Positions 20,329 through 56,721 of a stretch of DNA of 64,000 nt are shown here, piece by piece. The DNA comes from Sabellastarte sp. h YS-2021. Its lineage: Eukaryota; Annelida; Polychaeta; Sabellida; Sabellidae. The DNA is taken from contig OZ024929.1 of assembly GCA_964017235.1 (NCBI GenBank), positions 60,669,603 through 60,733,602 on the forward strand, written 5' to 3'. Within the stretch, counting starts at the first letter, position 1. Every line of letters starts with the position of its first letter. The notes under the pieces are model-generated. The model was not told the origin of the DNA. It made no database searches and saw only the letters and a program-made list of their open reading frames with translations. Both the position numbers and the translations under genes were made by a program.

Positions 20329-21101
20329 CTAAACCAGCCTATAGGAAAACAGAGCTAACAGAAAGACTGTCTTAAAAGTCAAATCTTTAAGAGAAGCCTT
20401 TTGCATGGGCTCAAAAGGAGCCCTAGTCAACTGGTGGAGTACCAGAGAAAGGTTCCAAGAGGGAACTCCTCGCCTGCCTTTGGGTTTATTCCTATGAAAG
20501 CTGTCCAACAGGCTGGTTAAGTTTTCATCCTTACCGATGTTCAACCTATCATTGCCCACCATGTCCGCAATAGCAGTTCTATAGCCTTCAATGGTGCTAG
20601 GTTGGAGTTTTCTCTCTTTGAACAGATGCAAAAGAAAATCCGCAAACTGGCTCACCTGCGACCTGAAGTCCACCTCGCACGAGTCACACCATTTAACAAA
20701 AATGGCCCACTTCAACTTGTACACAGCTCTGGTTGAGAGTCTCTGAGGAGCCTCAATTTTTGCTGCCACTTCATCAGAGAACCCTTGTTCCTGAATGGCA
20801 GAGGCTCTAGGAACCAAGCATGCAGATTCAGATTGCTGAGGTTCCTGTGATGGAGGCCGTTGAAAGGCTGTGTCACCAGATCCGTTTGAAGTGGAAGCTG
20901 GAAGGGGATCTGAACTGATAGATTGACCAGGTCCCAAAACCAAGGCATGTTGAGCCACCCTGGAGCAATTAGAATCATTCTGCGACAGCCCTGATCCATC
21001 ACCTTGAAGATCACTTGGTTGAGCAGAGAGACTGGAGGAAATGCATAAGCATCCAGATTCTCCCATGGCAGACTCAGGATGTCTACTGGTACCGGTGACA
21101 C
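20329..21101 (-). pseudogene. DIRS B linker and tyrosine recombinase (partial)
   Basis: Minus-strand segment with the linker (NLDAYAFPPVSLL; LIAPGWLNMPWFWDLV) and the N-terminal half of the recombinase (RKLQPSTIEGYRTAIADMVG, NLTSLLDSFHRNKPKGRRG, WNLSLVLHQLTRAPFEP, LTFKTVFLLALFS). The catalytic C-terminal half seen in other copies (HWKAHNTFTNFYLKDL) is not present before the terminal repeat. The copy could not integrate by itself. Confidence 0.85.
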
Positions 21102-21114
21102 AAACTTGGGAAGT

Positions 21115-22061
21115 TTATGATTGAAACGGGTTGCAAACAGGTCTACCTGTGGTCAGTCCCAGTTCGAACACAAGAGATTGAACACCTGCTGAGAAAGGGA
21201 CCACTCTGTCTGGATCACCTGATTGTGTCTGGACAGTTTGTCCGCTATCACATTCAAGTGACCTGGGATGTGTCTTGCCCGTAGGACTATTCCCCTGGGA
21301 TGGCACCAGGACAGAAGTCTCCATAGGAGGGCACAAAGAGAGCCTGATCTCATACCTCCCTCCTTGTTGATGTAGGAAACCACAGTTGTGTTGTCCGTTG
21401 CTATCAGAACAATCTGGTCCCTGCAAAGATGCTCGAAACTCTTGAGGGCCAGAAACACTGCTTTTAGCTCCAAAAAAATTATGTGGAGGTGACTTTCTGG
21501 GTCTGACCAAACGCCTCTTGCCGTGGAGTCCCCTAAGTGAGCGCCAAAGCCTTCGTTTGAGGCGTCTGTAAACACTTGCAGAGCGTGTTGCAAGGGTGCA
21601 ATGGCTGGCCCCGAAGTACATTGCTCTCTCTCAACCACCAATCTAGGGGCAAGGGAATGACCTTTTCGAGAACCTCCGGAACATGCCAGTGTGGCTTCAA
21701 GTGCCACTGGATGGGCCTCATGTGAAGGCGGCCTGACCAAACTTGTTTCTCCGTTGCTATAAGGAGACCTATCAGAGACATGAACTGTCTGATTGTACAA
21801 CAGTTCCGTTCCTTGATAAATTTTAACTTTTGCTTCAGGGTAGACCACCGGTCCTGAGTGGGCAAGACCCGACCGGTCAACAGGTCGAACCGGTAACCGA
21901 TGAAATTGAAAACCTGTTGAGGAGTTAGTTCCGATTTCTTCATGTTTACAACCCAACTCTTGGCAAAGGGCCAAGAGGGTCCGGGTATGTTGTAGGCAAG
22001 TTGGTTGAGCCATCAGCTTGACCTCTTTGACCACTTTGGTGAATTCCAACGGGGCCGTTGC
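21115..22061 (-). pseudogene. DIRS B reverse transcriptase end and RNase H
   Basis: RNase H motifs are clear: FTDASNEGFGAHL, LELKAVFLALKSF, VLIATDNTTVVSYINKEGG and RHIPGHLNVIADKLSRHNQ. Upstream lie the thumb-region hallmarks of DIRS polymerases (FNFIGYRFDLLTGRVLPTQ, LIGLLIATEKQV, HMRPIQWHLKPHW). Broken. Confidence 0.88.
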
Positions 22062-22846
22062 CTAACCAAAGGGAAGGGATGTGAACTGGCAATTGACCTT
22101 GTTCATGTGAAACCTTAAGAATTTTCTGGACCTCTGGGCTATGGGAATGTGGAAGTACGCATCGCTGAAGTCCAACGACATGACCCATTCCCCTTTTTGA
22201 AGAGACAACCGGTCTCTGGGGTCTCCATTTTGAAGGTGTTTGTGGCCAGGAAAAGATCGAGCTTGCTCAGGTCCAAGATTGGACGCCATTTTCTGTTGGG
22301 CTTTGGAACCAGAAAAAGACGGTTGTAAAAAGCCAGAGATGACCTGACAACCACCTTTTCTACAGCTTGCTTTTGTATTAGAGAGGCCAGAGCTTCCAAA
22401 AGAGCTTTGTTTTTGAGGGGACTTGCATATTTGCTCACAATCAAAGGAAAGCGGCTGAGTTGTGGCCTTTCCTTGAAAGGAAGATTGTAACCGTCCCTTA
22501 GCACTGAAACTACTCTGGGATTGCACCCAACCTTTACCAAACTTGCCAGAAGCTCTGAAGCCTTCCCCCAACACTGATCTCTGTGACATGTGGGACATTT
22601 GGAACAGATGGGGCAGAAAGACATTGATTTACACAAGAAACACCTTTGACAAGCTTTATTCTGTTCAAACCATGACCGGAACCTAAGCCTTTTCCTGTGA
22701 ATATTACAATAGGAACAGGATTGACAACATTTATACATGACACATCTTGTTTGCAATTCTGAAACATTAAAGTCTGTTCTTGAGGTGTCTCTCTTACCAC
22801 TTACCCCAACCCTTGACTGCTGAGATTCAACTTGGTTGGAAAACAA
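22062..22846 (-). pseudogene. DIRS B cysteine cluster and reverse transcriptase fingers-palm
   Basis: The segment begins with a cysteine-rich stretch (CCQSCSYC; CQRCFLCKSMSFCPICSKC and PTC) that probably binds zinc. It continues into polymerase blocks: FYNRLFLVPKPNRKWRPILD, TNTFKMETPE, SLDFSDAYFHIPIAQRSRKF and NCQFTSLPFG. The cysteine block ahead of the polymerase also occurs in DIRS H at 7.2 kb, so it is a conserved part of this lineage. Broken. Confidence 0.86.
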
Positions 22847-24982
22847 CTGTAATTGTCATTTATAAGACTTAAGACCACGTGCCTTGGAAAAACAAGGGTT
22901 GGCTCTACCACGTGCATGGCCTCTACCTCTATTTCTGGAAAACTGTCTCCAAGGTTGTTGTTCCTCTTCAGTTGATCCGGAACGTCTCTGATTATCTCTC
23001 CTTTCATAAGGCCTATATCTGAAATTTCCCCTCCAATTGGAGTGCTGGGAGGCGCCTGGATTGGGCCCCGGAGCAGCTCCGGCTGCATCGTGCTTATTTA
23101 TATCCTGTTCAGCAGCGTTGAGCACTGAGTCAGGGAAGAGGCCATAACCAAACATAGGAGCGTTTCTCAGTAAGTTCCACGTGTCTGGCTTCACTACCGG
23201 CTTGACAAATTCTAAATAAGAGTCATGACGGAGAAGGATGAGATTGGCCAGATTCACAAACAAACTGTCCGCCAAGTGCTGCAATGCCGTACCCATAGCC
23301 ATTGAGACGTTTTGGTGGAATGCTAGCAGATCCTAAATATCTTTGAGAGCTTTGGTAACGTCTTTAGGAGCTTTTCCCTGGTTGATCTTGCTGCACAGAA
23401 AAGAGACATTGGAAGTAATTCTTGCAGTTCGGAAGTACAACGGTTAAATCCAGCAGCACTGTTCACCACATAACTTCATTCATGGGCACAATGCTCCCAC
23501 CTTCGCAGGTACTCCTGGGAAGTTGGCCTGGAAAGTGGGCCAGAAGGTGAATAAGAGGAGGCCTTGGTGATTCTTGGGAATTGGGAATTTACTTTAGCCT
23601 CACTGCTACTCCAGCTAAACAGACTCTTCCCTGGTCGGTGCAGCCCATCCTGTCTAAGTGTATGCATTTGGTACCACCGGCTCTGCGACTTGGGTATTTT
23701 AATAAATTGGTCCTTTTTAAGGCCGGCAGAGTCTTGTGCCCTAGAGGGATATCCTTCGGCTACGGTGGTATTGACTTTCTCCAATTTTTGGCAAAGCCAA
23801 TCATCCGGAGGCATGGCAACAGATATACGGACCGGTTTCCTAGGGTGTTTGCCCCTCCATGGATTGTTAGACTTGTCTGGCTCTGGCAAGTCGCTCTCAA
23901 ATACCGGTATGAAGTCCCAGCCCATAAATGAGTGCACTGAACCTGACCGTCTCACAAAAAGTCATATCTTCGGTCTGCTCTTGTCTTTCTAAATTGTCTG
24001 AAGATACTTCACCCTCTTCAGCCAAAGAGTTATCCTCATCAGAAAAGCCCTCATCAGAAACAGGGTGTTTCGGTGGATTCCTATATTCTTGCTCAGGATA
24101 TGTCATAGCACCGGCAGTATCACTAGAAGTAGCAACGATAGGTGCCCTGTTATACTGTGCAGAATGACCAGTGTCCATAGTCCCTTGACCGGTCTGAGAA
24201 ACTGAAGAAATAGTCTGAGCAGCAGGACTGGTAGACTTAAGTTCCTGACCGGTGAAAGATGAAGAAGCAGAAGAAACCGGCCTTAAAACGGGTTCCTGCA
24301 TGTCATCACCCGGACCGGGGATGCTTTTAGCAGAGGCCGGTGGATCAATCACAACAGAGTCTTTGGGTTTTTCACTCTTAGAAGATTTGTGACTCCTCTT
24401 TTTTTATTTAGCCTCAGTCTTTGTCAACTTGATATCCTGCTCTGCCGGGTACACTACCCGACCGGTAGGCCGGGCAGAGGGATCTATGAAAGGCTTATCA
24501 GACAGCACGGGGTGAGATGAAACAGAAGCAGAAGATTTTGGAGTGCTGAAGACATTTTCTCTGGATAAAAGGGCCTCAAAGCACGCGAACTGTTCCGCCC
24601 ATTTATCATTCATGGCCTCAAATTGGGCTGAAGTAACAAAAGACCCTGGAGGGGCAGAGGAAGTAGAGGGAGCAGGTGCGTGCACAGATACCTGCGCTGT
24701 AGATTGATGAGACACTTCCATATCAACAGTACTGATAATAGTCACATCCTTAGGGGACACCAAAGTACCTGCTCTTCTTTCCTTACGGATTTTATATGAT
24801 GGAGTAGACAAAGTCTCATGCTTTCACCCCTCACAAATTAAACAATCTTGTCCCTTGACACAAGGATCATCACCAACCTTCTTATCGTGGCAACGCTCAC
24901 ATTTTTCATGAGAATCAAAGGCGGCCATAGCATGACCGCATGAGCCACGTCTCTGCCCCTTTAACTTTCCTGGTGATGCCAT
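22801..24982 (-). pseudogene. DIRS B gag-like ORF1 region
   Basis: It starts at the ATG at 24,982. The first 50 residues carry a Cys/His cluster: CGHAMAAFDSHEKCERCHDK, then GDDPC and CLIC. A long acidic, serine-rich region follows (for example GFSDEDNSLAEEGEVSSDNL). The later part holds helical sequences (QHLADSLFVNLANLILLRHD) and a basic tail with YRPYERRDNQRRSG and RNRGRGHARGR. The same order is found in DIRS F. Gag proteins package the RNA. The region is broken, with about five interruptions. Confidence 0.8.
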
Positions 24983-26740: not shown

Positions 26741-27321
26741 CCAAGCGTGTTTGTTCGGCTAGGCTAAAGAAACATTCGGATAAGGGAAAACATAAGCTTC
26801 GGGCGAAATATGTTCCCTCATCTTGTGCCTCAGAAAAAACTGAGGCCTCTGTGCAAGTCAAAAAGTCTTCTAAGGCCAAAGAGGCTTCTTCTGATCAAGA
26901 CAAGCAACAAACAGACCCAGAGCCTGGCTTTTATATGTCTGTATTTATAGGTAGATATGTCTGACTTGCTCTCACAATATGCAAAGGACATAGAAACTTT
27001 TAGGCAGGTTTTAAATCTCCCAGGGACACTATGCCTAGCTCCTCTACCACTATCTGGGTTCTGGATGATGAAAAAGGCCAACAGGATCTTAGGCCAAGGT
27101 GCCCTTCAGCTATGCTTCCACTTAATCATTATCTAAAAGATGAATTTGAAAAATTTGAACAGGACTTCCATCCTGCTAATTTGCCTAAGGGTAAATATAT
27201 CAAACCCCGTGGTTCCACTTCAAAGTGGTACAAAGTGGGACAACCTTGTTTGTAGGACAAATTACAAGAATTGAACACAGGTTTTGCAAAAATCTGCATC
27301 TCCCCTAAAGCCTCAGGGGCC
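26741..27321 (+). pseudogene. DIRS C gag, part before the transposon
   Basis: The translated sequence (DKGKHKLRAKY, SSDQDKQQTDPEPGFY, LLSQYAKDIETFRQVLNL, EFEKFEQDFHPANLPKGKY) aligns with the DIRS D gag at 57.5-58.0 kb (SDQDQPQHDPDPLFY, PSQYAEEVETFRHILNLP, FDKFEHDFLASYLPEGKY). It is a gag-like ORF1 of the subfamily. It ends at the GGCC target duplication of the inserted transposon. Confidence 0.8.
27318..27321. repeat. Target-site duplication GGCC (left)
   Basis: GGCC directly precedes the CACAGTG end at 27,322 and is repeated at 32,134-32,137 after the other end. The related, uninterrupted gag at 57,419-57,422 carries GGCT on the plus strand at the matching point, with collinear flanks (GAGCCCCTATGGGCAAGG on its sense strand). 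The duplication is thus four bases long. Confidence 0.88.
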
Positions 27322-27333
27322 CACAGTGGTTTT
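27322..27333 (+). repeat. Terminal inverted repeat, CACAGTG end (transposase 3' side)
   Basis: CACAGTGGTTTT, identical for 12 bases to the other end. The first seven bases equal the consensus heptamer of V(D)J recombination signals. At 12 or 23 bases further in I see no nonamer-like sequence (TAACTTTAG and TAAAATGGT, against ACAAAAACC), so only the heptamer resemblance holds. Confidence 0.88.
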
Positions 27334-28138
27334 TCTGCTGTAACTTTAGTTTAAAATGGTACACATAAACACACACACACTCAGAGAATACTTGTGTGTG
27401 TTGTTGGTGGTGTAAACAGAGCACAGCTTGTACTCTCACTTGTATGATTTTATGCGGGAGAAATGTCTGTGAAAAAGGTTCTTTATTTTGTTTTTGTTTT
27501 TTATAAAACTTTTTTAGTACACATGAAAAAACAAATTATATGTATTAAAAGCACTATCTTTGTTTAATGCATTAGTATATATATTCTAGTAATTCTTTTT
27601 AAAAACCAAGCTGAAATATTACACATTCCATTCCATGTGCATATGTAAACAGAACAAAATGTGTTGTGAAATAAGTTTTTGGAAAAAATCATAAACTTTT
27701 AATCAATGATTAATTAATGTTGCTCATTTTTGATAAGCATATATGTTATATGTACTTTTTCCAGAATGTCATGGCAATTCAATGGTATCAAATTCAATTC
27801 CCTGAAAAAAAAGCCGCATATTTGTTGTAAAATAGGAAATTAAATGCTAAAACAAAGAGAAAGATTGCATAAAACATAGACAGGACTATAAGTGTATTCT
27901 ATAAGTATCATTGAAAAATGAAAAAGTTACCTATTTCACCTTGTTAAACTTCCTGTTATATCCAATTACAGTTAAACTATCCACATGGTAAATTCATTGA
28001 CAGTCCCTGCTCCGATATGTTAATAATTAGGCACATTATATACAAAATAAATAGTTTTAAATAATCAGTAGAAGAATGTACAGAAGAAATAATTACTGTC
28101 TCAATGAAATATCACAGTTTGAATGGTGCCACCAGGTT
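27334..28138 (-). other. 3' untranslated part of the RAG1-like transposon
   Basis: AT-rich, with a CA/GT repeat near 27,369-27,400. A possible minus-strand AATAAA polyadenylation signal lies at 27,482-27,487 (TTTATT on the plus strand). No coding signal is visible. Confidence 0.6.
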
Positions 28139-29083
28139 TTAATTTTTAACAGTGTTGCTTTTACTTCTTGGTTTAATAATTAGGCTTTGTATTGAGGGAT
28201 TAGTGAGTGTGTGGTGCTCTCTCATTATGAATAGCAATCTCTGTGTAGTATTTGTGACATGACACATATTTCGCTGAATCCTGTTGAACTCTCTATGGAT
28301 GGACTCTCCTCCTTGTTCTCCATGGAGACCCATTCCAAAACCCCATTTACTAATCCAGTCTATGACATGATCTTCCAGAAAATGATGCTTAGGGATGAGT
28401 AAATTTGGAAAGTACTGTCTGTAATATTTCAAGTAATTTTCAATGGAAATTTTGATATCTGGAAGCATATCTTGTGATATTTTATCCATGTGTCCAACTT
28501 TAGTGTGAATGTCAGAGAAATATTGGTTAAGTTTCAAAAATTTAGATGCAGTTTGTTTTGCCCTATCATTTATGTCAGGCTTTCCACTCAGCTCACAAAC
28601 TTTTTCTAGAATGGTACACCATATGTCATCCTGGATATTTGACTTTAAATACTTTGAGCAGTGATTCCCTACAAATGACTTGGAATGATAAGCCTGTTGG
28701 ACAATATTGTGATGCTTTAGTGTAATCTGCACTGCTGATACAACAGGACCAGACTGGACTTGTAGTGATGGTTTACATTTTACAAGTTTCAATTCTATTG
28801 AATCTATGCGGGTTTGCAGTTTCTTAGCCTCCTTCTCAGTCAAGTTGCTGTTTTCTTCGTCTCTTTCATCCCTGAGAAAGCCAAGTGAATTCAGCAATTT
28901 CCTCTTTTCCCTCAACCCTTTAATGTACTGGTGAAATAATGAGTTATCTAGTTTTACCTTTGAAAGTGATATGTCTTCAGCAATTTGAAGATCAATTTGG
29001 TGAAGCTCATTTTCCAGAAGGTCATGGTGTTTTTTCACAATCCCCAGCAGCATATGAAGGTATGGAGGGCAAACATGTTTTAC
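28139..29083 (-). pseudogene. RAG1-like transposon: transposase C-terminal part
   Basis: The open frame of 304 codons from 29,053 is the C-terminal part of the transposase. The stretch upstream of it (VKHVCPPYLHMLLGIVKKHH) is in the same frame after an in-frame TAA at 29,081-29,083. The catalytic glutamate region is GFGMGLHGEQGGESIHREFN. Aligned with RAG1 (EGNESGNKLFRRF), the glutamate at residue 250 of the 304-codon frame corresponds to RAG1 E962. HGEQGGESIH is also the form usual in Chapaev transposases. A coiled, charged stretch (RDERDEENSNLTEKEAKKLQ) lies between the palm parts. It ends at a normal stop. Confidence 0.85.
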
Positions 29084-30172
29084 TTAGACATCCCACATAG
29101 GCCTATGTATCACATTGTTGAAACTGGAGGCAAGTGACAGATTTTGTTTGCCATCCTTCTTGAAGTTCTCATAGTCTTTTATCATTCTTCCAAGTTTTCT
29201 AGCCCTGATCAAACCTCGATAATCAAGTGGAATTTGTAGATCACCATAGCGAATATTGCACCAGAGACAAAAATGTTTGCCTCTTGCACCTGAGAGACCA
29301 TATAGACTAGCCAGAAAGGCATAATCTCCATAAACAAACAACCTTATCCTTTTGTTTTCCCAATACTCCTCTTTAAGCTGGTTTATTTGGCTCTCATGAA
29401 TGGAGCATATCTTGCTCCTATTTTCATAAATGTCTTTGGCAGACATACAGGGATATACTATTGTGTTCTCCTTCGAATTTGGCTTGTCTAAATTGCACAC
29501 TTGGAGGCACAATTTAAAAGAATTGCCTCCATGATCTCCACCTATTTTTACCCATATCTCATCCTTTGGCATTCCATCTCTCCATAGAAGCTTGCCATTT
29601 TGCTTGTAGCCATCAAGTAAGTCCTTCACAAACTTTTGGAGGTTCTTCACATGGACTACTGGTGCAGATGTTTCTGTTAATCCTCCTTTACTATCGTGAC
29701 TTTTGTCATTTCGTTCAATAACTGTTATTTGCTTTGTTTCTAAATAATTTGACAGAATCTTTGATCTTTCAAGTCTTTCCTTTTTCTCACTTTCACAATG
29801 TACTCCAAGTATTCTTGTCAGATAGCGTCTCTGTCCCCTGTGCTGATTCCATGACAAACCGAGAGAAGTTTTCATAGCTAAAGCAACTCTCTTGGACAGG
29901 AAAGATTTTTGTTTTACCCCAGCATTGGAACATATTTTAAGTTTAGAGTTTTTCGAAAGCACTTTAAGCTCAGATGACTGCTGGGCACTGTGTGAATCCT
30001 TACTTTTTCCTGCTACAGCAACACGATACGAGGCAATTTGACGTGCTCTTCTTCTTTTTAATGGAGACGAAACATTGGCACTTTCCTTTCTTGGTTTCAC
30101 TCTTCTTTTCAAAAGTAGTGGTTGACCACCAGTCTTGCAAGCTATGATATTTTCTTTAGCAAAGTTCAGTTT
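29084..30172 (-). pseudogene. RAG1-like transposon: basic region and transposase N-terminal part
   Basis: The 342-codon frame from 30,112 has its first catalytic aspartate in WVKIGGDHGGNSFKLCLQ (residue 193) and its second in LFVYGDYAFLASLYGLSG (residue 263), followed by a CLWC zinc motif. Immediately upstream, and in frame after an in-frame TGA at 30,169-30,171, lies KLNFAKENIIACKTGGQPLL, then a long basic run (KRRVKPRKES). GGxP plus basic residues recalls the RAG1 nonamer-binding region (GGRPRQHLLSLTRRAQKHR). No independent start is needed, because this is one protein with the RING part. Confidence 0.83.
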
Positions 30173-30961
30173 TCATTTTGTTAAATGTGTATGCAACCTT
30201 TCCTCATCCTTGTCAAGTGGTGAGGTGATTGATCTAGAAACTGTTTTATTGAATGTACTATCAGGTGATTCTTCTTGAGTGAAAGTTCCAAAAATCGGTG
30301 ATGTTTGAATTTGCATTTCAACATGAGATTTATTGGGTTTTGGAGTACTATGTGCCTGCTCATGACCTGGAGTTTCAATTATAACATTAACTGACTCACT
30401 GGTGGATTGTATACTTAGAGGAGAGTTGATATCACAGTTATGATGGGACATAAGGTCATAAGACATTGTCTTTTCACATTTTCCACACTTCACAGGGAGC
30501 TTTGTTAGTTGCTTGTGAAATCTTTCATCAGCGCTTTTAACATCACTAGTTGAAACAGAATCAGAACATACTGGACACAAAACAGGGTCACTTTTTTCAC
30601 TGTGGATATAGTTTGATAAGCATTCACAGCAAAAGTAATGATCACACTTGGTTTTTACTGTTGCTAATGAATATAGATCTTGACAAATAGGACACTTGTA
30701 TGTTTCTGCATGTTCAACTGGCACTTTTGTATGATCAATGTGGACTTCCAAATGTGATATATTTGTGTCATGATCGAAAAGCTTCTTTAAAATGTTTTGT
30801 TGAGCTGATTGGCAAGAGGTTTTACTTCTTGGTCTTCCCTTTTGATGTTGTTTTTTTACGTCCTTTGTCAGATTGAGAATCGTATTGTTTGCACACTTTA
30901 CAATCAAATCGCTTGTGGCACTGCCACATGTCTGAAACGATTTTTGCTCTTTCTTTAACAC
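30173..30961 (-). pseudogene. RAG1-like transposon: RING finger region
   Basis: A C3HC4 RING is plain: YKCPICQDLY, VKTKCDHYFCCECLSNYI, LCPVCSD. Human RAG1 at the same place has SCQICEHIL, TNCKHVFCRVCILRCL, YCPSC. Next comes VKCGKCEKTMSYDLMSHHNC, matching the RAG1 finger ZFA ([20 protein letters not shown]). A serine/threonine-rich spacer leads to the transposase. In RAG1 this RING is a ubiquitin ligase; here the role is inferred only. The frame joins the preceding zinc region by a shift at a run of seven A near 30,855. Confidence 0.9.
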
Positions 30962-31133
30962 CTAGATATTTTTCATTATCCAGTTTTGTAGTTTCACAGA
31001 AAACTTTAGCATTTTTCATCTTGAAAAAACAATGGGTGCAGATTTTCTGAGGATGTATTTCAGTGTCTGATGTAACATTTATTCCATAGAAAATGAAAAT
31101 TTCATCTTTGCTATTGACACAAAGTCTTGGCAC
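30822..31133 (-). pseudogene. RAG1-like transposon: zinc-binding N-terminal region
   Basis: The segment reads LQKDKRQVPRLCVNSKDEIF then FYGINV, IHPQKICTHCFFKMKN, and MWQCHKRFDCKVC. Human RAG1 has FRIDV, IHPTEFCHNCWSIMHR, and EWHPHTPSCDIC in the same order and with similar spacing. The shared IHPxxxCxxC and WxxHxxxxCxxC signatures make the homology convincing. The frame is shifted by one base relative to the CRIC segment upstream. The true upstream join lies near 31,180. Confidence 0.88.
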
Positions 31134-31251
31134 CTGCCTTTTGTCTTTCTGTAGACGAGTCAGGACTCTTACTACAGATCCTGCACATATTATCGAGACA
31201 CTTGAAGTGATATTCCATTGTCATTGATTCATTTGGTCTATTTTTTGCCAT
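31111..31251 (-). pseudogene. RAG1-like transposon: N-terminal CRIC segment
   Basis: The likely start codon is the ATG at 31,251-31,249, giving MAKNRPNESMTMEYHFKCLD and then NMCRICSKS. RAG1 has RHLCRICGNSF at the matching place, just ahead of the IHPxxxC motif. The frame stays open for only 46 codons and then meets a stop. The homologous continuation lies one frame over, so a single-base change right after CRIC has occurred. Confidence 0.8.
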
Positions 31252-32121
31252 ATTTCTTAGGCAAAATTATAAATATTAAGAAGTATATAAAGTGATCAGA
31301 GTTATTCTCCAATATTCATTAATCTACATGTAAATAGATTAAAATTTGAGCTAGACACAAATTACATTTAACGATTTAAACAAATCTTTCAAGATTATGT
31401 CAAGAGTATATTTTATTCTATGAAAAGAATAACCAAACAGACATATTTATAAGATGTCATTTTACAAACCATTCTTAAAAATTGTATACCATGAAAAACA
31501 TTGCAGTGTCTGCAATGCCTATTGCTTCAGCAGCTAAAAGGGCCTATGTTTTTATCATATGCATAACAAACACGCAACTTCAAGTATACGCACAATACTC
31601 TGTGTGTAGTGTGATAAATGGGGCTATTAAAATGATTAAACAAAAATAAACAGAAAAGTACCTTGGTGCATGAGAAAGCACAGGATCTGGGCTGTATTCT
31701 GATATAAATTTTACCTTGGACAAAAATGAGGAAACACTAAAACTTACAGGTTTAAAAGAGGTGAAATAATTGTTCATTGGAAACTCAATTCTCTTATGTT
31801 TAGTTCTAGGGATGAATGGAATGTCATCTTTTTTGTTGGTTAATTTTAAAAGAAAGATATTTTTTTTATTTAGTCAAAATAAGTATGTTCTTAGCTTTTA
31901 ATACATATAGGTTTTGCTTAAAAATTTTGGGAATAAGTATTTTTAAAAGTTGATTATAAAAAGAGATCCCAAGTTTGTCAGCTTTTCTTCCACGATAAAA
32001 TTTGTATGTGTGGAGTGTGTGTGTGTGTGTTGTAAACTGCTGCTGTGTAAGTGTTAGCCAGAACTTATCTTTTGTAGGCCAAATAACACAATCCAACTAA
32101 AACACAGGAATTACTTGCTTT
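31252..32121 (-). other. 5' leader of the RAG1-like transposon
   Basis: AT-rich, non-coding, with a GT repeat at about 32,015-32,030 that mirrors the CA repeat near the other end. Promoter elements were not recognisable. Confidence 0.5.
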
Positions 32122-32133
32122 AAAACCACTGTG
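32122..32133 (-). repeat. Terminal inverted repeat, CACAGTG end (transposase 5' side)
   Basis: On the minus strand the end reads CACAGTGGTTTT from 32,133 inward, identical over 12 bases to the left end. The matching bases outside it (GGCC and neighbours) come from the palindromic target duplication, not from a longer repeat. GGCC follows at 32,134-32,137. Confidence 0.88.
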
Positions 32134-32912
32134 GGCCCCTATGGGCAAGGTTCCCCTACATGTACTCAAAGATTTTGAGCATCAGGCAAGGCTAAACCTC
32201 TGCACTGTTAATTTCGCGGCTACTTTTACTAAGATGGCTTCTGTTTGCAATTCCACCATGGAAAAATACCGGGACAGTATCAAGTCTACTGTCATAAGAA
32301 TTAAAAGCCCAATTCAAAAGGGTACCAATCCTGAAAAAGCAACAAAACGTGGTTATGAAACAACCTGTGACTATCTAGATGTCCTGAACAAGAGGATACA
32401 CATTTAGCAGATAGCCTTAGTCTGTCTAAGTAAGGCCTTAGGACACATTCTCTTGAGGGAGTTGTACACTATGGGTATTTCAAGCCTTGTCAGACGTGAG
32501 GATGAAATGACCCACCTTCAACCTCATGGGAGATTCTAGATGTCAGGAATTTAGGAGCTCCCCCTTTTGGCCCGCTCCTTTGTTCCGATCTCAACTGGTT
32601 AAGGGCGGAGAAGAATTCCTCCTTACAAAAGGCACCCCTAAAGTCACTCAGGGTTTTGGACACTATCAAAACAAGCCCTTTCGTAGTTCCCACAATAAGA
32701 AAAGAGGCTCCTACAGGAAATGCCCCTTTGGTAGACAATCCACTCCAAGCAGTAACCAAAAGTTTTCCTCAGGTAGGGGGAAAGCGAAAAACAGAGGCGT
32801 GGAAACCCCTCCTCCCAATGACTACTTAAAAGCCTCCCTCAGTCCACCAGTAGGAGGTTGCTTCCGTTCTTTCAGAAGAGACTGGCTAACAAATTCTCAA
32901 ACAATGTGTTGA
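32134..32912 (+). pseudogene. DIRS C gag, part after the transposon
   Basis: The gag resumes with PMGKVPLHVLKDFEHQARLN, KYRDSIKSTVIRIKSPIQKG and NPEKATKRGYETTCDYLDVL. These match DIRS D (KSSFKRVKSQIQKG, NPEKVARRGYEQACEYLELC) at 57.2 kb. The later part is glycine-, serine- and arginine-rich (FRSSHNKKRGSYRKCPFG), as in nucleic-acid-binding gag tails. Broken. Confidence 0.82.
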
Positions 32913-32924
32913 ACTTTAATACCA

Positions 32925-33853
32925 ATGGTTACATTCTACCAATGGTTCATCACAAAACCAAAATTAGCCAGAGTTCCCCTGATTCACTTAGGAAAGAAGG
33001 ACCATCAAAAAGATCTAGCTCTGGCCTCTTGTATTAAGTCTCTCTTGTCAAAGAACACTATAGAAAGGGTGGAAAATGTAAAATCTCTCTGGTTTTACAG
33101 TTTCCTGTTTCTAGTCCCCAAGCCTCACCAAAGGTGGAGGCCAATGATAGACGTAAGCAGGCTGAACACCTTTCTACTTGTAAAAAAGTTCAAAATAAAA
33201 ACTCCAGAGTCCATCAGGGCCTCTGATTCCAGGGGAATGGGTGTAGACTTGTCAGACACCTACCTTCAAATCCCAATCCATCAAAACTCAAGGAAGTACC
33301 TACGGTATTGCCACAATTCACAGGTGTTCCAGTTCACCTCCTTCCCTTTGGCCTAGCCACAGCCCCACAGGTGATTACAATGATTGTAAAGGAAGTGAAG
33401 ATAATGGCCCTCACAAGGGGAGTCAGACTTCATCAATACCTGGACGACTGGCTGATCAGGGCCCTGTCCCTGGAGAAAGCACAAGTGAACACCCAGACCG
33501 TGGTAGACCTGACAGTCCTTGGGGTGGATAATCAATCAAGAGAAGTCAGAATGTTTGTGGGCTACGAATACCACCTGGCTAAAGCCCTTATAAAGGAGAC
33601 TCAAGAGGGATGGCTCAAACTTCAGGATTTAATCCTACACTTAAAGTCAAAACATGTGACTGCAAGATGTTTGATGTTGCTAATTGGTTTGCTCACCTCA
33701 ACAGGGAAGATGGTCCTGGGGGGACACCTTCACATGAGGCCCTTTCAGTTTCATCTTAAGGAGAACTGGAGATATCCTGTCGTTGGACATCCTCCTTCCT
33801 TGGTGAGAGACCATTTCAGCTCACCTAGAGTGGTGGCAAAATCCTGCAGATGA
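32925..33853 (+). pseudogene. DIRS C reverse transcriptase
   Basis: Blocks in order: FYSFLFLVPKPHQRWRPMID, KKFKIKTPESI, VDLSDTYLQIPIHQNSRKYL, FQFTSFP, LHQYLDDWLI (catalytic motif C as YLDD) and MLLIGLLTSTGKMVLGGHLH with MRPFQFHL. The order and wording are those of DIRS polymerases in bivalves and other animals. Broken. Confidence 0.88.
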
Positions 33854-33854
33854 G

Positions 33855-34270
33855 ATGATGGGCGCAGACCTTCACCCCAAAGATCACAGTATCCAAATCT
33901 TTACAGATGCCTCAAACGAAGGCTGGGGTGCTTACTTAGAGCAAGCCTCTACAAAGGGTCTGTGGTCAGACGGAAAAAAGGCTACACATAAATGTTCTAG
34001 AGTTGAAGGTGGTATCTCTGGATCTGAAAGGTTCAAAGACCATGCCAAAACCAAACAGTGTTGGTTGCTACAGACAACTCAACAGTAGTAGCCTACATAA
34101 ACAAACAAGGAGGAACCCACTCGCCCAAGATGTGTGCTCTTCTGTGGAAAATTATGACCTGGTGCTATCATTACAAGATAACTCTAAGAGCCAGGCACAT
34201 TCCAGGATGCCTGAATGTGATGGCAGACCTACTGTCAAGGTCTAACCAAATCCAGTCAACAGAATGGTAA
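33855..34270 (+). pseudogene. DIRS C RNase H
   Basis: FTDASNEGWGAYLEQASTKG, MLVATDNSTVVAYINKQGG and LRARHIPGCLNVMADLLSRS are RNase H motifs in the family order. Broken, as elsewhere in this element. Confidence 0.86.
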
Positions 34271-34299
34271 CTGCATCTGCAAACAGATCTGTCAAAAGT

Positions 34300-35629
34300 T
34301 TTTTCATGTAGATCTATTTGCCACTCGTCTGAACCACAAAGTTTCATTGTGTGTATCTCCAGTCCCAGATCAAAATGCTTGGGACATCGATGCTCTGAAC
34401 ATAAACTGGTCGGGTCTCACTGTTTATGCTTACCCTCCCATGGCTCTCCTTTATGGGGTGATCCAAAAAATCAGGCAAAGCAGTTTCCTCATCAGTCTAA
34501 TAGCTACAGGCTGGCCAGGGATGCCGTGGTTTTGGGACCTAGTGCAGCTCTAAACAGACATCCCACTGCAGTTAACACTCCAGTCAACAACTCTTCTCAA
34601 ACAGTCCCACAACCAAGTGTTGCACAACAATCCTCAACATCTCAACCTACATGCCTGGTGTCTAGGAGTTGACTGCTCCAAGAACAAGGCTTCTCTGTGG
34701 AAGTGGCAGAGAGAATTGCTGCCCCTCAAAGATCATCAACAAGGACCATCTACAAGTCAAGGTGAGCCCTATTTGAGAAATGGTGCAGAGAAAATGCGGT
34801 GGATTTCTCCACTCCCTCTGCGAAACAACTCTTAGACTTGCACCTATACCAAGACCTAAACATACACCGTTCGACCATTGATGGTTACAGGATGGCCAAT
34901 GCTGACACCTTGGACCCAGAGGGTCTCCATATTTCTATAAGCTCTGACCGTAACAGGTTACTTTCTAACTTTCACAGGGATCGACCAAAACTTCCAGGAA
35001 TATTGCAAAGTGGAATCTTTCTGCTGTAATTAATGTTCTCACAAAAACACCCTTTGAAAGACACAGACCTCCAACATCTTACTCTCAAAACTGCTTTCTT
35101 GCTAGCTTTGGCCTCCAGCAAGCATCACTGCAAAATTCATGCCTGGATTGTGAACAAAGTATCTAATCTAGGCCAATGGGAAAAGGTAGCTTTGTTCCCC
35201 TCTTCACATTTCATAGCCAAAAACCAATCAATGAGAGAGGGTTCCCAAAGTGTGTCAATTCAAGGAAGACAGGGCCCTATGTCCTGTACGGGCGCTGAGG
35301 TACTATCTGGATCGAACCAAAGACCTGAGAGGGTCTCAATCCCTACTTTTTATTTCCTTCAAGAAAGGACATACCTCAGACTTGAGACCCGCTACATTCT
35401 CTTCTTGGCTAAAACAAACTATCCTACTTTGTCACAAACAAGCAGATCAGCAATCCTTGGACTTGGTCCAAGTTAAAGTGCATGACATTAGGGCCTTTGC
35501 GGCCTCTAAGACCTTTTACGGTGGGGTTTTGGTGGACCAAATCATGCAAGCTTGTCACTGGAAAGCTCACAACACATTTACAAATTTTTACCTCAAAGAT
35601 CTTACTTGGTCAGATAACGACAACAATAT
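34300..35629 (+). pseudogene. DIRS C linker and tyrosine recombinase
   Basis: Linker motifs (LTVYAYPPMALL; LIATGWPGMPWFWDLVQL) lead into the recombinase: NIHRSTIDGYRMANADTL, LKTAFLLALASSKHHCKIHA, KVHDIRAFAASKTFYGGVLV, ACHWKAHNTFTNFYLKDLTW. HDIR is the HxxR box, and the tyrosine in TNFYLKD is the family nucleophile. The LINE sits immediately after the reading frame at 35,630. The segment from about 34,620 onward recurs at 42,206 and 48,770. Confidence 0.88.
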
Positions 35630-38600
35630 CTAATCTAATCTAATCTACTGCTTTGCAGGCGCAATATCTTCCCCATTAAGGGGAACTCAGTGCGCTAGCT
35701 AACAAAAATCATTTCTTATAAGGAGAGTCGAGGGGCGTTCAAGGTCAGTGTACCAGGTTTGTGGGTGGGACCGAGAGGGAAGGAGACTAAGTTGGGAAGC
35801 TAGAGTTGAAAAGGTGGGTTTTGAGGTGTTTCCTGAAAGATGCGACAGAGGGACTGTTTCTTATTTGGAAGGGGAGAGAGTTCCAAAGAACTGGGGCATA
35901 GTGACTAAAAGAATTTGAGAAGTGTTTAATTGATTTATGAACTCTACGGTCAAAAGTGGGGGTATGAAGGAACTTGAGTTTAGGGGTACTTCGTCTAGTA
36001 TTTCTAAAGGAAGTGTAGGGGTGGATTAGTTCTCTTAGGTAAACAGGCTGACCTTGGTTGAGGATTTTGTATGTAATGAGGCCTATTTTGAATTGTACCC
36101 TATACCTAACTGGAAGCCAATGGAGTTCTTTCAGTTGAGGGGTGATGTGAGAAAATTTTGAGGAACGGGTGACAACCCTGCAGAGTGAGTTTTGCACTAG
36201 TTGCAGTCTTCTTAGCTCAAAGTCTGTGAGTGATAGAAACAGGGAATTGCAGTAGTCCAATCTGCTGCTGACCAAGGCATTGGCTAAAAGAACTGATGTT
36301 TTAAGGTCTAGAAGGGGGCGTATTCTGTAGAGGTCTCTAGCATGAGCTCTAGTGGACTTTATGACCTGTGACACATGGTCGGAGAAAGTGAAATTGGAGT
36401 CAAACACCACTCCGAGGTTCTTGACACTTTGTGCTGGTGAGACCTGATTACCAAGAATATTGATTGGAAAGTGAGGAAGGAGTTGTTTACGATTGTTTTT
36501 CGAACCTATCAAAATGAACTCGGTTTTATCAGGGTTGAGTTTTAATTTATTTGTGAACATGAAGTTTTAGATGTTGTTTAGGCAATTTTTTAGTTTTTGT
36601 ACAGAGTGAGAAAAATTTGCTGGAGAGAGTGAAATGTATAACTGAGTGTCATCGGCGTAGAAATGGTAATTGATGCTACTGTGAGATTGAATGATGGAGC
36701 TGATTGGGTTGGTGTAAAGGGAAAAAAGAATTGGACCAAGGACGGAGCCCTGGGGGACCCCATGCTGAAGGGCAACAGGATTTGAGAGTGTGCTGCCTAC
36801 CTTGACCGAGTGTGTCCTTCCCGACAGGTATGATTTGAACCAGCCAAGTGCCAGTTCACTGATTCCAGGAGTATAGTGTGATCAATGGTATCGAAAGCGG
36901 CGGGGAGATCTAGAAGGGTGAGGGCTGTAACAGACCCTTTGGCCATATTGAGAAGAATATCATTATGAATGTTAAGGAGGGCACTTTCAGTAGAATGGTG
37001 TTTTCTATAAGCCGACTGGAAGGCAGTCATCAGGCCGGCTTCATCAATGTGAGTATGTAGCTGGGCTGCTACTACCCTTTCAAGTATCTTTGAAATAAAG
37101 TTTAGATTGGAAACAGGCCTGTAATTTTTGAAAACTTCCTTGTCTAAGGATGATTTTTTGAGAATTGGGGTTACATGGGCCTGCTTAAAGAAATTAGGAC
37201 ACGTACCTTGTGCTAGAGAGGCGCTGATTATAGAGGTGATGGGGGTAATAAGAATATCCAGGAATTCAAGAACAAGAAAAGTAGGCCAAGGGTCAAGGGA
37301 ACATGATTTAGTGGGAGAGTCTTGGATGATTTTGGTGACCTGCTCTTCAGTTACAGCAGAGAAAGAGGCGAATGTGGGTGGAGGAGAGTCTGGGGTGATG
37401 TGTCGGAAATTGAGTGAGGTAGAGAAAATTGAGTGTATTTTTTCAATTTTTTCTGTAAGGAACTCGACAAATCTGTCAACCAAAAGCTTTGGGGGTTTAT
37501 AGATGGTAGAATCTTTGCTGGGATTCTTGTGTAACACATCACCCAGGACTCACCATAGTTTTTGTGGGTTGTGGTGATTGTCCTGAATTTTTTCTTTGAG
37601 GAATTCAGATTTGGCCTGCATGCAGATTTTATTATACTGGTGGACTTTCTGCATGTATTGGGATCTATTGAAGATAGATTTATTTCGGCGCCAAATACGT
37701 TCAAACAAACGCTTGGTCTCGTTTGCCGCAATTACCGTTTCATTAACCCATCCTGGGATGTACTTCGCCTTGATATTTTTGGTGTGTGGTGGTGCATATT
37801 TGTCAATAAGGGTGGACCAAGTAGTATGATATTGTTCAGAAAGAGTGTCGGCTTCCTTGGAAGGATTATTAAGTAGTTCAGAAGCGAGGAGATCTGTTTT
37901 CAATTTGTCTTTATCAATTTTATGGTATTTACGAAAGGTGACAGTAGCCTTGGTTTGGGTTGTAGGGGTTGAGAGATTAAGAGTAAAACTAATTGAAAAG
38001 TGGTTGGAAAAGGCATCAGTGGTATGGACATTGGAAATATAGTCATTGTTAGATTTGGTTAATACCTGGTCAAGTGTATGTCCATGAATGTGAGTTGGAA
38101 AGTTAACTTTCTGAGTTAAATCAAATGAATCAATCAAAGAATGAAAGGTTTTTGAATTTGAACATGTTGTTTCGAGGTGAAAATTGAAGTCGCCGATGAT
38201 CACCAGATTCTCCGTGGTATGGTGAATATCCTCCAAAAGTGACTGAAACTGGTCAAAAAAGGATGTAGTACTGGAGGACGGAGGTCTATATATATTCAGA
38301 AGGTAAAAGGATTCTTTGTGAAGGGTTATCTTGAGGAGGAAATTTTCGAAAGTGGTGCAGGTCTTTGTTGGAACTACGGAAGGATCCAATCCGTCTTTGA
38401 CAAAAAAGCCCAATCCTCCACCGCGACGGGCCACTCGTGGCTGTTGATAGAGTTTGTAGCCTGGTGGGGTAATTTCGGACAGATTTGCACTTGTAGTGTC
38501 AGGTCTTATCCAGGTCTCAGACATGGCGAAGAGATCGGTGTCATTATCAAAAATAAATTTTGCAATGGCAGGATATTTGTTATATATTGATCTAATGTTT

Positions 38601-39156
38601 GCATAGGTGACCTTTGGACACCTGGGTGGTCCTGGGTTTGGGTTTATGTCACCAGCAAGCAGGAGTAGGATGAAAAGACGGAAAGGTGGTAGGGCAGGTG
38701 GAATTGAAATTGTAGATTTGATGATAAAATGTAGACAGAAGGTGGTGGTGGGGGGTTTGAAGGGGCAGAAACTGACGACATCAGGGCACTTAATGCTTGA
38801 GTTGCTATGGTGCTGATATGAAGCAATAACTGGTTGGATTGCCAGTAAAAAATAAAGGAAAATCATGTTTGAGGTCTTTAGAGTGGATTAGAGTGGTTTG
38901 GTGGGTTTGAGTTTTGAGTTTGATGATCCCCGATAACGGGGAATGTGAGCGATAAAAGGGGATCAAACGATAAAGTGGGCAGTTTGCATGTGTAAATATC
39001 AATTAACTATGTCAAAAGGGGGTAGATTAAAAAGATTATTTTATTAGTTCTTTCAATAATAGCACCAAGGCAGACGTAAAGTGAGGTTATTAAATTTTTA
39101 ACTCTATCGGATCTGATTTTCAAAAACGGTACTTCCCTGACGGAACCACGCCACCA
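35630..39156 (-). mobile_element. CR1/L2-type LINE, near full length
   Basis: A 3.5-kb non-LTR retrotransposon on the minus strand inserted in the DIRS C tail. The DIRS sequence on either side (ACAACAATAT before, AAATATGTATCTGG after) implies an AATAT target duplication. The 3' end has four GATTA-type units (35,630-35,646 on the plus strand, CTAATCTAATC), as in LINEs whose 3' ends are short tandem repeats. The 5' leader spans about 38,867-39,156. Its single ORF joins an AP endonuclease to a reverse transcriptase. Confidence 0.9.
35787..38866 (-). pseudogene. LINE ORF: AP endonuclease and reverse transcriptase
   Basis: Residues 72-80 (GDINPNPGP) form a 2A-like motif. The endonuclease follows (VTYANIRSIYNKYP, MSETWIRP, LVIIGDFNFHL, HTLDQVLTKSN, FSNHFSISF). 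The polymerase has VTPILKKSSLDKEVFKNYRP, AFQSAYRKHHSTESALL, LTLLDLPAAFDTIDHTILL, GVPQGSVLGPILFSLYT and YHFYADDTQLYIS. The C-terminus SVASFRKHLKTHLFN is typical of CR1/L2. A TGA near 37,549 and a TAA near 36,568 lie in frame, and one frame shift lies near 36,860. With only three lesions, the copy is fairly young. Confidence 0.9.
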
Positions 39157-39635: not shown

Positions 39636-41357
39636 ATATTTGTTTTATTCGTTAGTTTCCTCGCCGCCGCATTATGGTCTCCCTCGAATATCTCCCTTAT
39701 TATTGGAAGCTTTTTAACCATATTTGGCAGTTATATACCTTAGGCATGGGAAAAGTTTTCCACATGCTTAAATTTGACCTTTCATCTTTATCAAGGTCAC
39801 ATCATCAAAAAATCGTTTTTTTTGGGTACACCCGCCCGTCATCGCCGCTCAGGAAAATCTACTGACCGCAGAGGCTTGTAATTATACACACATGTTCATA
39901 CTACCAAAAACAAGAACTGATTAGATTTTGGGAATGATCCGATTGAAAATGACTGATTTATGAGCGATTTTCTCACAGGTACCAACCAGAAGCTTAAAAT
40001 TCATGTGAACCCCCTATTATCTTCTTAAGTATTGCATTTAGAGCCATAAAATGTATTGGGAGGTAAAAATCAGGGCCAAACTGGGGTCATAAAATAGCCA
40101 ATTTTGACATTTTTCCTTATATCTCCTTTATTTTTGGTTTTAGACCTTTAGAATCTGTTGAGAGGTATTGGGAAACCATATATGTAAAGAGTCAAGATAG
40201 CCAATCAGATATACCCCCTGACACCCCCTTATGGGTCAAATTAGGGTAATAAAATAGCGGATTTTGTGTTTTTGTCTTATATCTCCTTTATTCTTGCTTT
40301 TAGAGCTTTAGAATGTATTAAGAGGTATTAGGAAACCTTATGTGAAGAATCTAGATAGCCGGCCACGTTTACCCTTGCCCCCCCCTTATGGGTCAAACTG
40401 GGGTCATAAAATAGCCAATTTTGTGTTTTTGCCTCATATGTCCTTTGAATTTTTGCTTTTACAGCTTTAGAATGTATTAACAGGTAGTTGGAATTCGTGG
40501 AGAGTCTAGGTAGCTGGTCAAATTAGCCCTCTGACCCCCTCTTATGAGTCAAACTGGGGTAATAAAATATCAATTTTTCTGTTTTTGCCTCATATCTTCT
40601 TTATTATTGGTTTTACAGCTTTACATTGTTTAAGAGGCAGTGGGAAACCATATGTGGAGAGTCTTAATAGCTGGTCACAGTGGGGTCATAGATTGCAATT
40701 TCTACCTTAATATTTCAATATTAATGATGTCATTATCTTAATGTTATTTTCATATCTCAGTGCAAAGGGTGTAACTTTTTGAAATTGCAATATCAACTTA
40801 TACATACTATTCAATTTTCTGACAGGGGTCTTGAATTTTTATGGAAATACAAAATGTCATTTAATTAACTGTAGAACATACAGTGATTTTAGCAAATTTT
40901 ACATCTGCTGCTCAGTAAAGTTGCTTCAAAGTTGAGTTCATCATACAGAAAAGGTCGTTTATCCCTCTCATTATTGCTTCTTGGGCTTTCAACCCAGTTT
41001 TGTGGTCACACTACTCCATATATGGAGAGTCTATATAGGAAGTCAGGTTTGCCCTCTGACCCCTTCTTACGGGTCAAACTGAGGTCATAAAATAGCAGAG
41101 TTTCTTGTTTTGCCTTATATCTACTTTAAAATTACTCTTCTTACAAACTATAGCATTTATTAAATTAACTTTACACAATTTATGACCATGGAAAACAAAA
41201 TAAAGCTTACATTTTTCTTTCATGTTAATGCATAAACTTCCACACTGTCTGCTTAACTTTAGCTTCTTCTCTCAGCACTGCATGTTTTTTTTTTTGAAAA
41301 ACCTTTTTCTACTTTATACTATAAAGCATGACCTTTTGGGATGCTTTGTTTTTGTTA
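39636..41357 (+). repeat. Unit 1 linker with about 157-bp tandem repeat
   Basis: From about 40,010 to 40,690 the sequence repeats GGGGTCATAAAATAGCCAAT, ATATCTCCTTTATT and GCTTTAGAATGTATTAA at spacings of 156-160 bp (starts near 40,083, 40,243, 40,400 and 40,556). A further lone unit lies near 41,090. The rest is AT-rich with no coding signal. The whole linker recurs in units 2 and 3. Confidence 0.85.
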
Positions 41358-42205: not shown

Positions 42206-43231
42206 AACAATCCTCAACATCTCAACCTACATGCCTGGTGTCTAGGAGTTGACAGCTCCAAGAACAAGGCTTCTCTGTGGAAGTGGCAGAGAGAATTGCT
42301 GCCCCTCAAAGATCATCAACAAGGACCATCTACAAGTCAAAGTGGGCCCTATTTGAGAAATGGTGCAGAGAAAATGCAGTGGGTTTCTCCACTCCCTCTG
42401 CGAAACAACTCTTAGACTTGCACCTGTACCAAGACCTAAACATACACCGTTTGACCATTGATGGTTACAGGACAGCAAATGTTGAAACCTTGGACCCAGA
42501 GGGTCTCCATATTTCTAAAAGCTCTGACCTTAACAGGTTACTTTCTAGGTTTCACAGGGATCGACCAAAACTTCCAGGAATATTCCAAAGTGGAACCTTT
42601 CTGTTGTACTTAATGAGCTCACAAAAACACCCCTTGAGCCTATGAAAGACACAGACCTCCAACATCTTACTCTCAAAACTGCTTTCTTGCTAGCTTTGGC
42701 CTCCAGCAAGAATCGCAACGAAATTCGTGCCTGGGTTGTGAACAAAGTATCTAATCTAGGCCAATGGGAAAAGGTAGCTTTGTTCCCCTCTTCACATTTC
42801 ATAGCCAAAAACCAACCAGTGAGAGAAGGTTCCCAAAGTGTGTCAATTCAAGGAAGACAGGACCCTGTCCTGTACGGGCCCTGAGGTACTATCTGGATCG
42901 AACCAAAGACCTGAGAGGGTCTTGATCCCTACTTATTATTTCCTTCAAGAAAGGACATACCTCAGACTTGAGACCTGCTACACTCTCTTCTTGGCTAAAA
43001 CAAACTATCCTACTTTGTTACAAACAAGCAGATCAGCAATCCTTGCACTTGGTCCAAGTTAAAGCGCATGACATTAGGGCCTTTGCGGCCTCTAAGGCCT
43101 TTTATGGTGGGGTTTTGGTGGACCAAATCATGCAAGCTTGTCACTGGAAAGCTCACAACACATTTACAAATTTTTACCTAAAAGATCTTACTTGGTCAGA
43201 TAACAACAATATGTATCCGGTCCAGCAGTAG
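42206..43231 (+). pseudogene. DIRS tyrosine recombinase, unit 2 copy
   Basis: More than nine-tenths identical by eye to 34,628-35,629. Key segments are RSSTRTIYKSKWALFEKWCR, NIHRLTIDGYRTANVETL, LASSKNRNEIRAW, KAHDIRAFAASKAFYGGVLV and HWKAHNTFTNFYLKDLTW. Broken, with a few interruptions. It begins abruptly at the LTR boundary, so linker and polymerase parts are absent. Confidence 0.85.
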
Positions 43232-43390
43232 TGGCTCAACAAATCCTAGACCCCCCTCAGACTAGTCATCCTCAGAAAGAAAAGAAGGGGGAGGCTGCAG
43301 CTAAGTCTTCAGGAGTCTAATCCCACGGTCTAGGTATACGACTACCTCCTCAGGATGTTTGGTAAGGTATTTTATCTTTTATTTCACCTT

Positions 43391-44148
43391 TCACCTTTTC
43401 AATCCTCCACCGCAACGGGCCACTCGTGGCTGTTGATAGTTTGTAGCCTGGTGGGGTAATTTCGGACAGATTTGCACTTGTAGTGTCAGGTCTTATCCAG
43501 GTCTCAGACATGGCGAAGAGATCGGTGTCATTATCAAAACTAAATTTTGCAATGGCAGGATATTTGTTATATATTGATCTAATGTTTGCATAGGTGACCT
43601 TTGGACACCTGGGTGGTCCTGGGTTTGGGTTTATGTCACCAGCAAGCAGGAGTAGGATGAAAAGACGGAAAGGTGGTAGGGCAGGTGGAATTGAAATTGT
43701 AGATTTGATGATAAAATGTAGACAGAAGGTGGTGGTGGGGGTTTGAAGGGGCAGAAACTGACGACATCAGGGCACTTAATGCTTGAGTTGCTATGGTGCT
43801 GATATGAAGCAATAACTGGTTGGATTGCCAGTAAAAATAAAGGAAAATCATGTTTGAGGTCTTTAGAGTGGATTAGAGTGGTTTGGTGGGTTTGAGTTTT
43901 GAGTTTGATGATCCCCGATAACGGGGAATGTGAGCGATAAAAGGGGATCAAACGATAAAGTGGGCAGTTTGCATGTGTAAATATCAATTAACTATGTCAA
44001 AACGGGGTAGATTAAAAAGATTATTTTATTAGTTCTTTCAATAATAGCACCAAGGCAGACGTAAAGTGAGGTTATTAAATTTTTAACTCTATTGGATCTG
44101 ATTTTTAAAAACGATACTTCCCTGACGGAACCACGCCACCAAATATGT
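43391..44148 (-). mobile_element. LINE 5' fragment, unit 2
   Basis: This matches 38,409-39,156 of the full LINE: the leader and the first part of the ORF, including the GDINPNPGP motif and the start of the endonuclease. It is cut off at TTTTCAATCCTCCACCGC (43,396 onward), the same point as in unit 3. At its leader end the DIRS tail resumes exactly as in unit 1, so the fragment was copied together with the insertion site. Confidence 0.88.
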
Positions 44149-49770: not shown

Positions 49771-49929
49771 GGCTCAACAAATCCTAGACCCCCCCAGACT
49801 AGTCATCCTCAGAAAGAAAAGAAGGGGGAGGCTGCAGCTAAGTCTTCAGGAGTCTAATCCCAAGGTCTAGGTATACGACTACCTCCTCAGGATGTTTGGT
49901 AAGGTATTTTATCTTTTATTTCACCTTTC

Positions 49930-56540: not shown

Positions 56541-56721
56541 CTTTCTGGATACAAATGGCCAGAACTTGTTCTTTTTGAAGGGCCTTGTATCCTGACTGAA
56601 TCAGAGGGACTCTAGCTTTGTTTTTGAAACGAATGGAAGAACGTATCCATTGGTGATAATGTTAAACACGTTGTTTGAACATTTGTTTGCCAGTCTCTTC
56701 TGAAAGAAAGGAGAGAACCTC

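Follow-up and report, generated by a model that had tools for sequence, protein, structure and literature searches.

A probable Chapaev-type transposon in the annelid Sabellastarte encodes a protein with the domain order of RAG1

The segment 27322-32133 of a 64,000-nucleotide stretch of the genome of Sabellastarte sp. h YS-2021 (contig OZ024929.1, positions 60,669,603 to 60,733,602; this whole stretch is hereafter the window, and positions are counted from its first letter) is a decayed, broken and recently inserted copy of a cut-and-paste DNA transposon. With a probability of about 0.93 we assign this element to the Chapaev type, its single protein comprising a Chapa domain with three CxxC motifs, a RING and a second zinc finger, a basic region opened by GGQP, and a DDE/RNase H core with a C2C/H4H zinc site. 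RAG1 is the enzyme that assembles antibody genes, and the vertebrate protein presents the same order (C1, C2, C3, RING, ZFA, GGxP and a DDE core with a C2C/H2 zinc site). An initial annotation of the interval 28139-31251, beyond which the element extends, had proposed a RAG1-like N-terminus fused to a DDE transposase whose core might be distantly related to that of RAG1; as a whole, this interpretation was partly supported.

The coding region (31251-28139, minus strand) was split over three frames, the second of which (31220-30822) contained IHPQKICTHC and MWQCHKRFDCKVC, whereas the third (30877-28139) ran from the RING to the gene end and was interrupted by two in-frame stops. All motifs initially quoted were found on this strand in the claimed order. 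Pfam detected a RING (9.1e-7) and DUF1280 (1.1e-19) in pieces of the window copy, and two other genomic copies of its family, L004 (1038 amino acids, aa) and L003 (1023 aa), displayed the full domain order in one open frame; the order of motifs was thus considered to exceed chance. Fusion into a single protein was observed in these two copies, but not in the window copy itself, whose broken state the initial annotation did not mention.

A repeat search yielded inverted arms at 27315-27333 and 32122-32140, corresponding to the GGCC target duplication plus the terminal repeat CACAGTGGTTTT (Table 1). When the flanks were joined minus one GGCC, an open frame (LNTGFAKICISPKASGA/PMGKVPLHVLKDF) spanned the insertion site and continued into the right-hand frame. 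We take the interrupted sequence to belong to the gag of a DIRS-like element, a label for which a Pfam scan of three frames at the site found nothing. In the 1.786-Gb assembly (647 contigs), the 362-aa piece 29084-30172 had at least 120 matching stretches, the nearest at 97-98% identity. Twenty regions were fetched, nine of the window's family and eleven of other families. Eight of these nine copies possessed both ends (L016 was without the 5' end); together with the window copy they made nine complete insertions, all with CACAGTG..CACTGTG termini and eight with perfect 4-base-pair (bp) duplications, judged by eye. Pairwise differences among the nine were 0.45 to 3.06%, which indicated a young family. 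Copy L010 contained roughly 250 additional bp close to its 5' end (about 1380-1629 in coding orientation). Further families were present at about 60, 56 and 50% identity with the domain order unchanged, and long frames were obtained outside the window's family from L021 (1030 aa) and L022 (1023 aa), both from ATG, and from L025 (1046 aa, from TTG). Two of these families ended in CACAGTG or CACAGTA and showed a 4-bp duplication at all five insertions with both ends (L018, L020, L021, L025, L027), so that over all families 13 of 14 such insertions, all except L009, showed a 4-bp duplication.

By profile comparison, the non-core part of the protein was shown to be homologous to RAG1. A Chapa profile built from ten relatives, with the window copy excluded, was compared with all PDB chains and the top three matches were RAG1 (1.3e-10, 7.4e-7 and 7.4e-7). 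The alignment spanned the three CxxC motifs from first to last, on RAG1 pairs C110/C113, C175/C178 and C210/C213, and the Chapa zinc domain corresponded by homology to RAG1 residues 80-260. PMC3124419 describes the central non-core domain of RAG1 (residues 87-217) as holding two zinc ions, binding DNA and having a part in nuclear import, and in PMC4411706 the Chapa domain is linked with the N-terminal part of RAG1. Profile-profile alignment of the Chapa part with RAG1 gave 97.8-98.2% over 100 columns, and the local alignment of whole-protein profiles selected this same part (110 columns, 96.0%). The control maxima with 40 shuffles were 22.9 for Chapa and 20.8 for the RING, the latter with a query of three RING rows. 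With 200 shuffles, 3 of 200 for Chapa and 1 of 200 for the RING exceeded the real alignment; the top shuffle of each, the sole ones inspected, were alignments of 9 and 4 columns, respectively, where the query profile ends, and were taken for an edge effect of the program. One such value also appeared in the 30-shuffle Chapa control. The RING query of the 30- and 200-shuffle runs was cut by coverage and may include RING-less rows (9 rows in the 30-shuffle run). A profile of the RING plus the second finger covered positions 15-108 of RAG1 in 1rmd.

Nineteen database relatives were available, among them Nucella and Branchiostoma; none was found in viral_contigs (query P0001) or in prokaryote genome contigs (query P0002). 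Pfam RAG1_imp_bd was above its cut-off in P0005 (2.6e-7, residues 5-122 against profile positions 90-221) and P0017 (7.2e-6), below it in P0004 (0.0012) and P0012 (0.08), and was not seen, with an E limit of 0.1, in the remaining scanned relatives. P0013 (Nucella lapillus, ACOMHN_030946) is a predicted gene fusing a RabGAP-TBC protein with a Chapaev transposase, which may reflect a host-transposase fusion, insertion into an intron or an erroneous gene model. Lungfish RAG1 compared with the six-frame translation of the whole genome produced seven matches with E between 6e-6 and 6e-4, after scoring of 44 of the 60 candidates from the first look. Every match fell within RAG1 residues 154-375 and beside a Chapaev core match; at this sensitivity, therefore, nothing in the 1.8 Gb was more RAG1-like than these elements, and no RAG1 gene proper was seen with this query, which would speak against a jawed vertebrate as the host. 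PF12560 and PF12940 had no match in the genome, which shows little since control genomes were also silent; PF12560 missed even the Chapaev copies. Molluscan haemocyanin (PF14830) likewise gave no match, again with silent controls.

In structure predictions, the RING of an intact-frame copy matched RAG1 in 1rmd and the core had a fold of the RAG1 type. In the 1038-aa protein, CLWC (663) and HFLEDH (958) lay between D644 and HGEQGGES (978), that is, the C(2)C and H(3-4)H pairs were located between the second Asp and the Glu as described for the CMCT group. The whole core exceeded all of 100 shuffles in the alignment with RAG1 (27.5 vs. at most 26.7; probability 2.4%), and its last 151 residues all of 200 (25.9 vs. 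at most 21.6; probability 16.5%); these two were the only core segments to beat every shuffle. The proposed distant relationship of the core to RAG1 was thus borne out by the predicted fold, but hardly by the sequence.

Several results weigh against this interpretation. L009 lacked matching 4-bp flanks. Pfam detected no RAG1 family in L004, L021, L022 and L025 with an E limit of 1, or in P0001 and P0002 with a limit of 10. The RING resembled BRCA1 better than RAG1, both with the window copy alone (4.8e-8 vs. 1.8e-4) and as a profile (9.8e-8 vs. 4.2e-7). The similarity of the core to RAG1, as judged from alignments, was marginal: with 40 shuffles the DDE part scored 22.5 vs. a maximum of 25.4, the part from GGQP to the end 27.3 vs. 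28.0, and the GGQP part a borderline 18.48 vs. 18.4, whereas with 30 shuffles the GGQP part scored 17.9 vs. 25.4 and the part from the second Asp to CxxC 22.8 vs. 26.1.

The distribution of the RING bears on how the shared architecture arose. By Pfam, it was absent from nine of the 11 database relatives with an N-terminus and present in two, P0001 (above the cut-off) and P0005 (weakly, 0.016, and also by alignment). In a 24-core tree, one RING-bearing group comprised P0001 and the present genome's families, with the RING-less P0002 as its sister, whereas P0005 was placed among RING-less rows on an incompletely supported branch (86/95). The RING label required two changes on this tree, a count that omitted seven rows without a known N-terminus and that treated as RING-bearing both P0003, nearly identical to L021, and L024, despite one changed RING cysteine. 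This fits the remark of Kapitonov and Koonin (2015) that two Chapaev subgroups carry a RING. P0003, nearly identical to the L021 family in the tree, is located on a 1.31-Mb contig, and its source is probably the same species as the present genome or one very near to it, judging from this identity. The two label changes, the RING escaping Pfam in nine of 11 relatives, and a RING similarity that is not exclusive to RAG1 would also agree with a late joining of RING and transposase independent of RAG1, the common order being convergence on a useful combination; we regard this as unlikely, though it is the strongest of the alternatives. Most likely, Chapaev and the RAG/Transib elements inherited the architecture from a shared ancestor, with the RING later lost or gained.

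The assignment to Chapaev follows published descriptions of the group. The Chapa-type zinc domain, RING and core occurred in the order of published Chapaev descriptions, and the element shares 5'-CA..TG-3' termini and short target duplications (4 bp, within the 2-5 bp range) with the Chapaev/CMCT clade, for which a 2025 paper (PMC12730594) gives CA..TG termini 'in most cases'. Kapitonov and Koonin (2015) apply the name Chapa to an N-terminal part of RAG1 that TransibSU and Chapaev also possess, and they report Chapaevs in which a RING comes after Chapa. A transposon protein resembling the RAG1 N-terminal part, as in the present element, is likewise described for N-RAG-TP of Aplysia californica in PMC8355894 and PMC2996935.

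The RAG1-like domain order and predicted core could also suggest an element closely related to RAG1 itself, either a Transib or a RAG-like (RAGL/ProtoRAG) transposon, instead of a Chapaev, but this is very improbable. RAGL transposons make 5-bp target duplications, whereas 4 bp was observed here. Transib also has 5-bp duplications and is without the N-terminal part. With an E limit of 1, the RAG1 core (PF12940) was not detected in any of the four long-frame proteins; its silence in the genome carries little weight, as stated above. Outside the transposase gene no frame longer than 97 aa was found within 27322-32133, and hence no RAG2-like partner. RAGL elements (BbRAGL, molluscan RAGL) resemble the present one in N-terminal zinc motifs, RING (Martin et al. 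2020) and RAG1-type core, but PMC7204232 also gives them RAG2L and a Cx2Cx3GHx4C tail, whereas no second long frame or post-core cysteine was present here. Vertebrate RAG1 differs in that the core sequences are barely alike, and the present element is a transposon with 4-bp duplications and no RAG2-like gene inside. The ends carried a heptamer identical to that of V(D)J signals, CACAGTG, but the nonamer of a recombination signal sequence matched at just 1 to 3 of 9 positions at 12- or 23-bp spacing, and at 7 of 9 solely at other spacings or in the opposite orientation; such signal-like ends were consequently rejected. That a host gene with a RAG1-like N-terminus merely adjoins an unrelated transposase, through an annotation or assembly artefact, might be suggested by the split frames of the window copy, but is barely conceivable given that L003, L004, L021 and L022 each read through every domain in one frame and that copies on several chromosomes have identical ends.

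ZAD is the module through which insect zinc-finger architectural proteins dimerise. We tentatively propose that the N-terminal zinc module of Chapaev and the central non-core domain of RAG1 could be ZAD-type domains, although this is doubtful and the evidence, derived from sequence, is thin. The first PDB match of the Chapa profile below RAG1 was Drosophila LD30467p (7po9_A, E 0.016), presumably a ZAD; no paper with this entry code was among those listed by a literature search. Pfam zf-AD (PF07776) appeared below its cut-off, at E up to 0.05, in five sequences (the window piece, P0004, P0011, P0017 and P0018), the best score (20.7 bits, P0011) not reaching the curated cut-off of 28. No match was obtained with an E limit of 10 in P0001 and P0002, with a limit of 1 in L004, L021, L022 and L025, or with a limit of 0.1 in P0005, P0006, P0010, P0012 and P0016. 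The Chapa domain predicted alone from a 5-sequence alignment, which was too shallow, gave a pLDDT of 43.8 and was not used for a fold search; the proposal is thus confined to sequence. No work joining RAG1 with 'zinc-finger associated domain' or ZAD was found in a limited paper collection. If true, the RAG1 N-terminus and the ZAD family would share one ancestral module, perhaps transposon-borne.

By analogy with RAG1 and Transib, a dimeric transposase would cut at the CAC ends and the element would be pasted in with a 4-bp stagger. The Chapa module may assist nuclear import and bind DNA, and dimerisation and ubiquitination may be functions of the RING, as reported for RAG1.

Table 1. Features of the element in the window.
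Feature	Positions	Strand	Basis or remark
Whole transposon, Chapaev type (probable)	27322..32133	-	4812 bp; terminal inverted repeats, 4-bp duplication, other genomic copies with identical ends
Left target site duplication GGCC	27318..27321		With one GGCC removed, the joined flanks read open
Right target site duplication GGCC	32134..32137		With one GGCC removed, the joined flanks read open
Left terminal inverted repeat CACAGTGGTTTT	27322..27333	+	Repeat search
Right terminal inverted repeat CACAGTGGTTTT	32122..32133	-	Repeat search
Transposase gene start, frame 1 (MAKNRP...), first zinc motif CRIC (RAG1 C1)	31115..31251	-	ATG at 31251; intact counterpart in another copy
Chapa domain, frame 2: IHPQKICTHC (C2) and MWQCHKRFDCKVC (C3)	30822..31148	-	Frameshift at each end; relatives' profiles match RAG1
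C3HC4 RING finger	30566..30694	-	Pfam zf-C3HC4 9.1e-7; predicted structure of intact-frame copy matches 1rmd RAG1
Second zinc finger (ZFA-like)	30430..30495	-	RING+ZFA profile spans RAG1 1rmd 15-108
Premature in-frame stop TGA	30173..30175	-	Third frame
GGQP motif, opens basic region	30119..30130	-	In the place of RAG1 GGRP
GGDHGG, proposed first catalytic Asp	29525..29542	-	Sequence motif
YGDY, proposed second catalytic Asp	29321..29332	-	19 residues ahead of CxxC, as in RAG1
CLWC zinc pair, C(2)C	29258..29269	-	Sequence motif
Premature in-frame stop TAA	29084..29086	-	Third frame
HHFLEDH zinc pair, H(4)H	28367..28387	-	Sequence motif
HGEQGGES, proposed catalytic Glu region	28301..28324	-	Sequence motif
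Gene end, TAA	28139..28141	-	Frame list

Elsewhere in the window, fragments that we take to be DIRS-like retroelements, from frame motifs such as LFATR..VSPVPD, were located at 351-953, 32138-35633, 42253-42645 and 48825-49630 (plus strand) and at 20329-24823 and 56032-58002 (minus strand). Pfam detected RT_RNaseH (1.4e-5) in 21153-22061 and nothing in four further such pieces. A LINE on the minus strand (36797-38887) presented reverse transcriptase (2.5e-12) and endonuclease (6.5e-9) domains, and its 5' part was repeated twice in shortened form (43350-43766 and 49928-50413, minus strand). Tandem arrays of a similar 157-160 bp unit starting GGGTCAAACT lay at 40073-40646, 45094-45692 and 51439-51737, and long arrays with units of 434/145 bp and 153 bp at 9441-11080 and 4050-4698, respectively.

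Chapaevs with the architecture of RAG1 are already known, transposons of this type with a Chapa domain and a RING having reportedly been described by Kapitonov and Jurka in 2007; the present genome adds several families, some copies of which have an unbroken gene. Structure prediction reveals a relation of their core to RAG1 where the sequence barely does. Chapaevs with a RAG1-type N-terminus approach the whole RAG1 architecture outside RAG/RAGL, and the several families found here, with some copies less than 1% apart and some unbroken frames of more than 1000 residues, offer material for studying the non-core half of RAG1 in a transposase.
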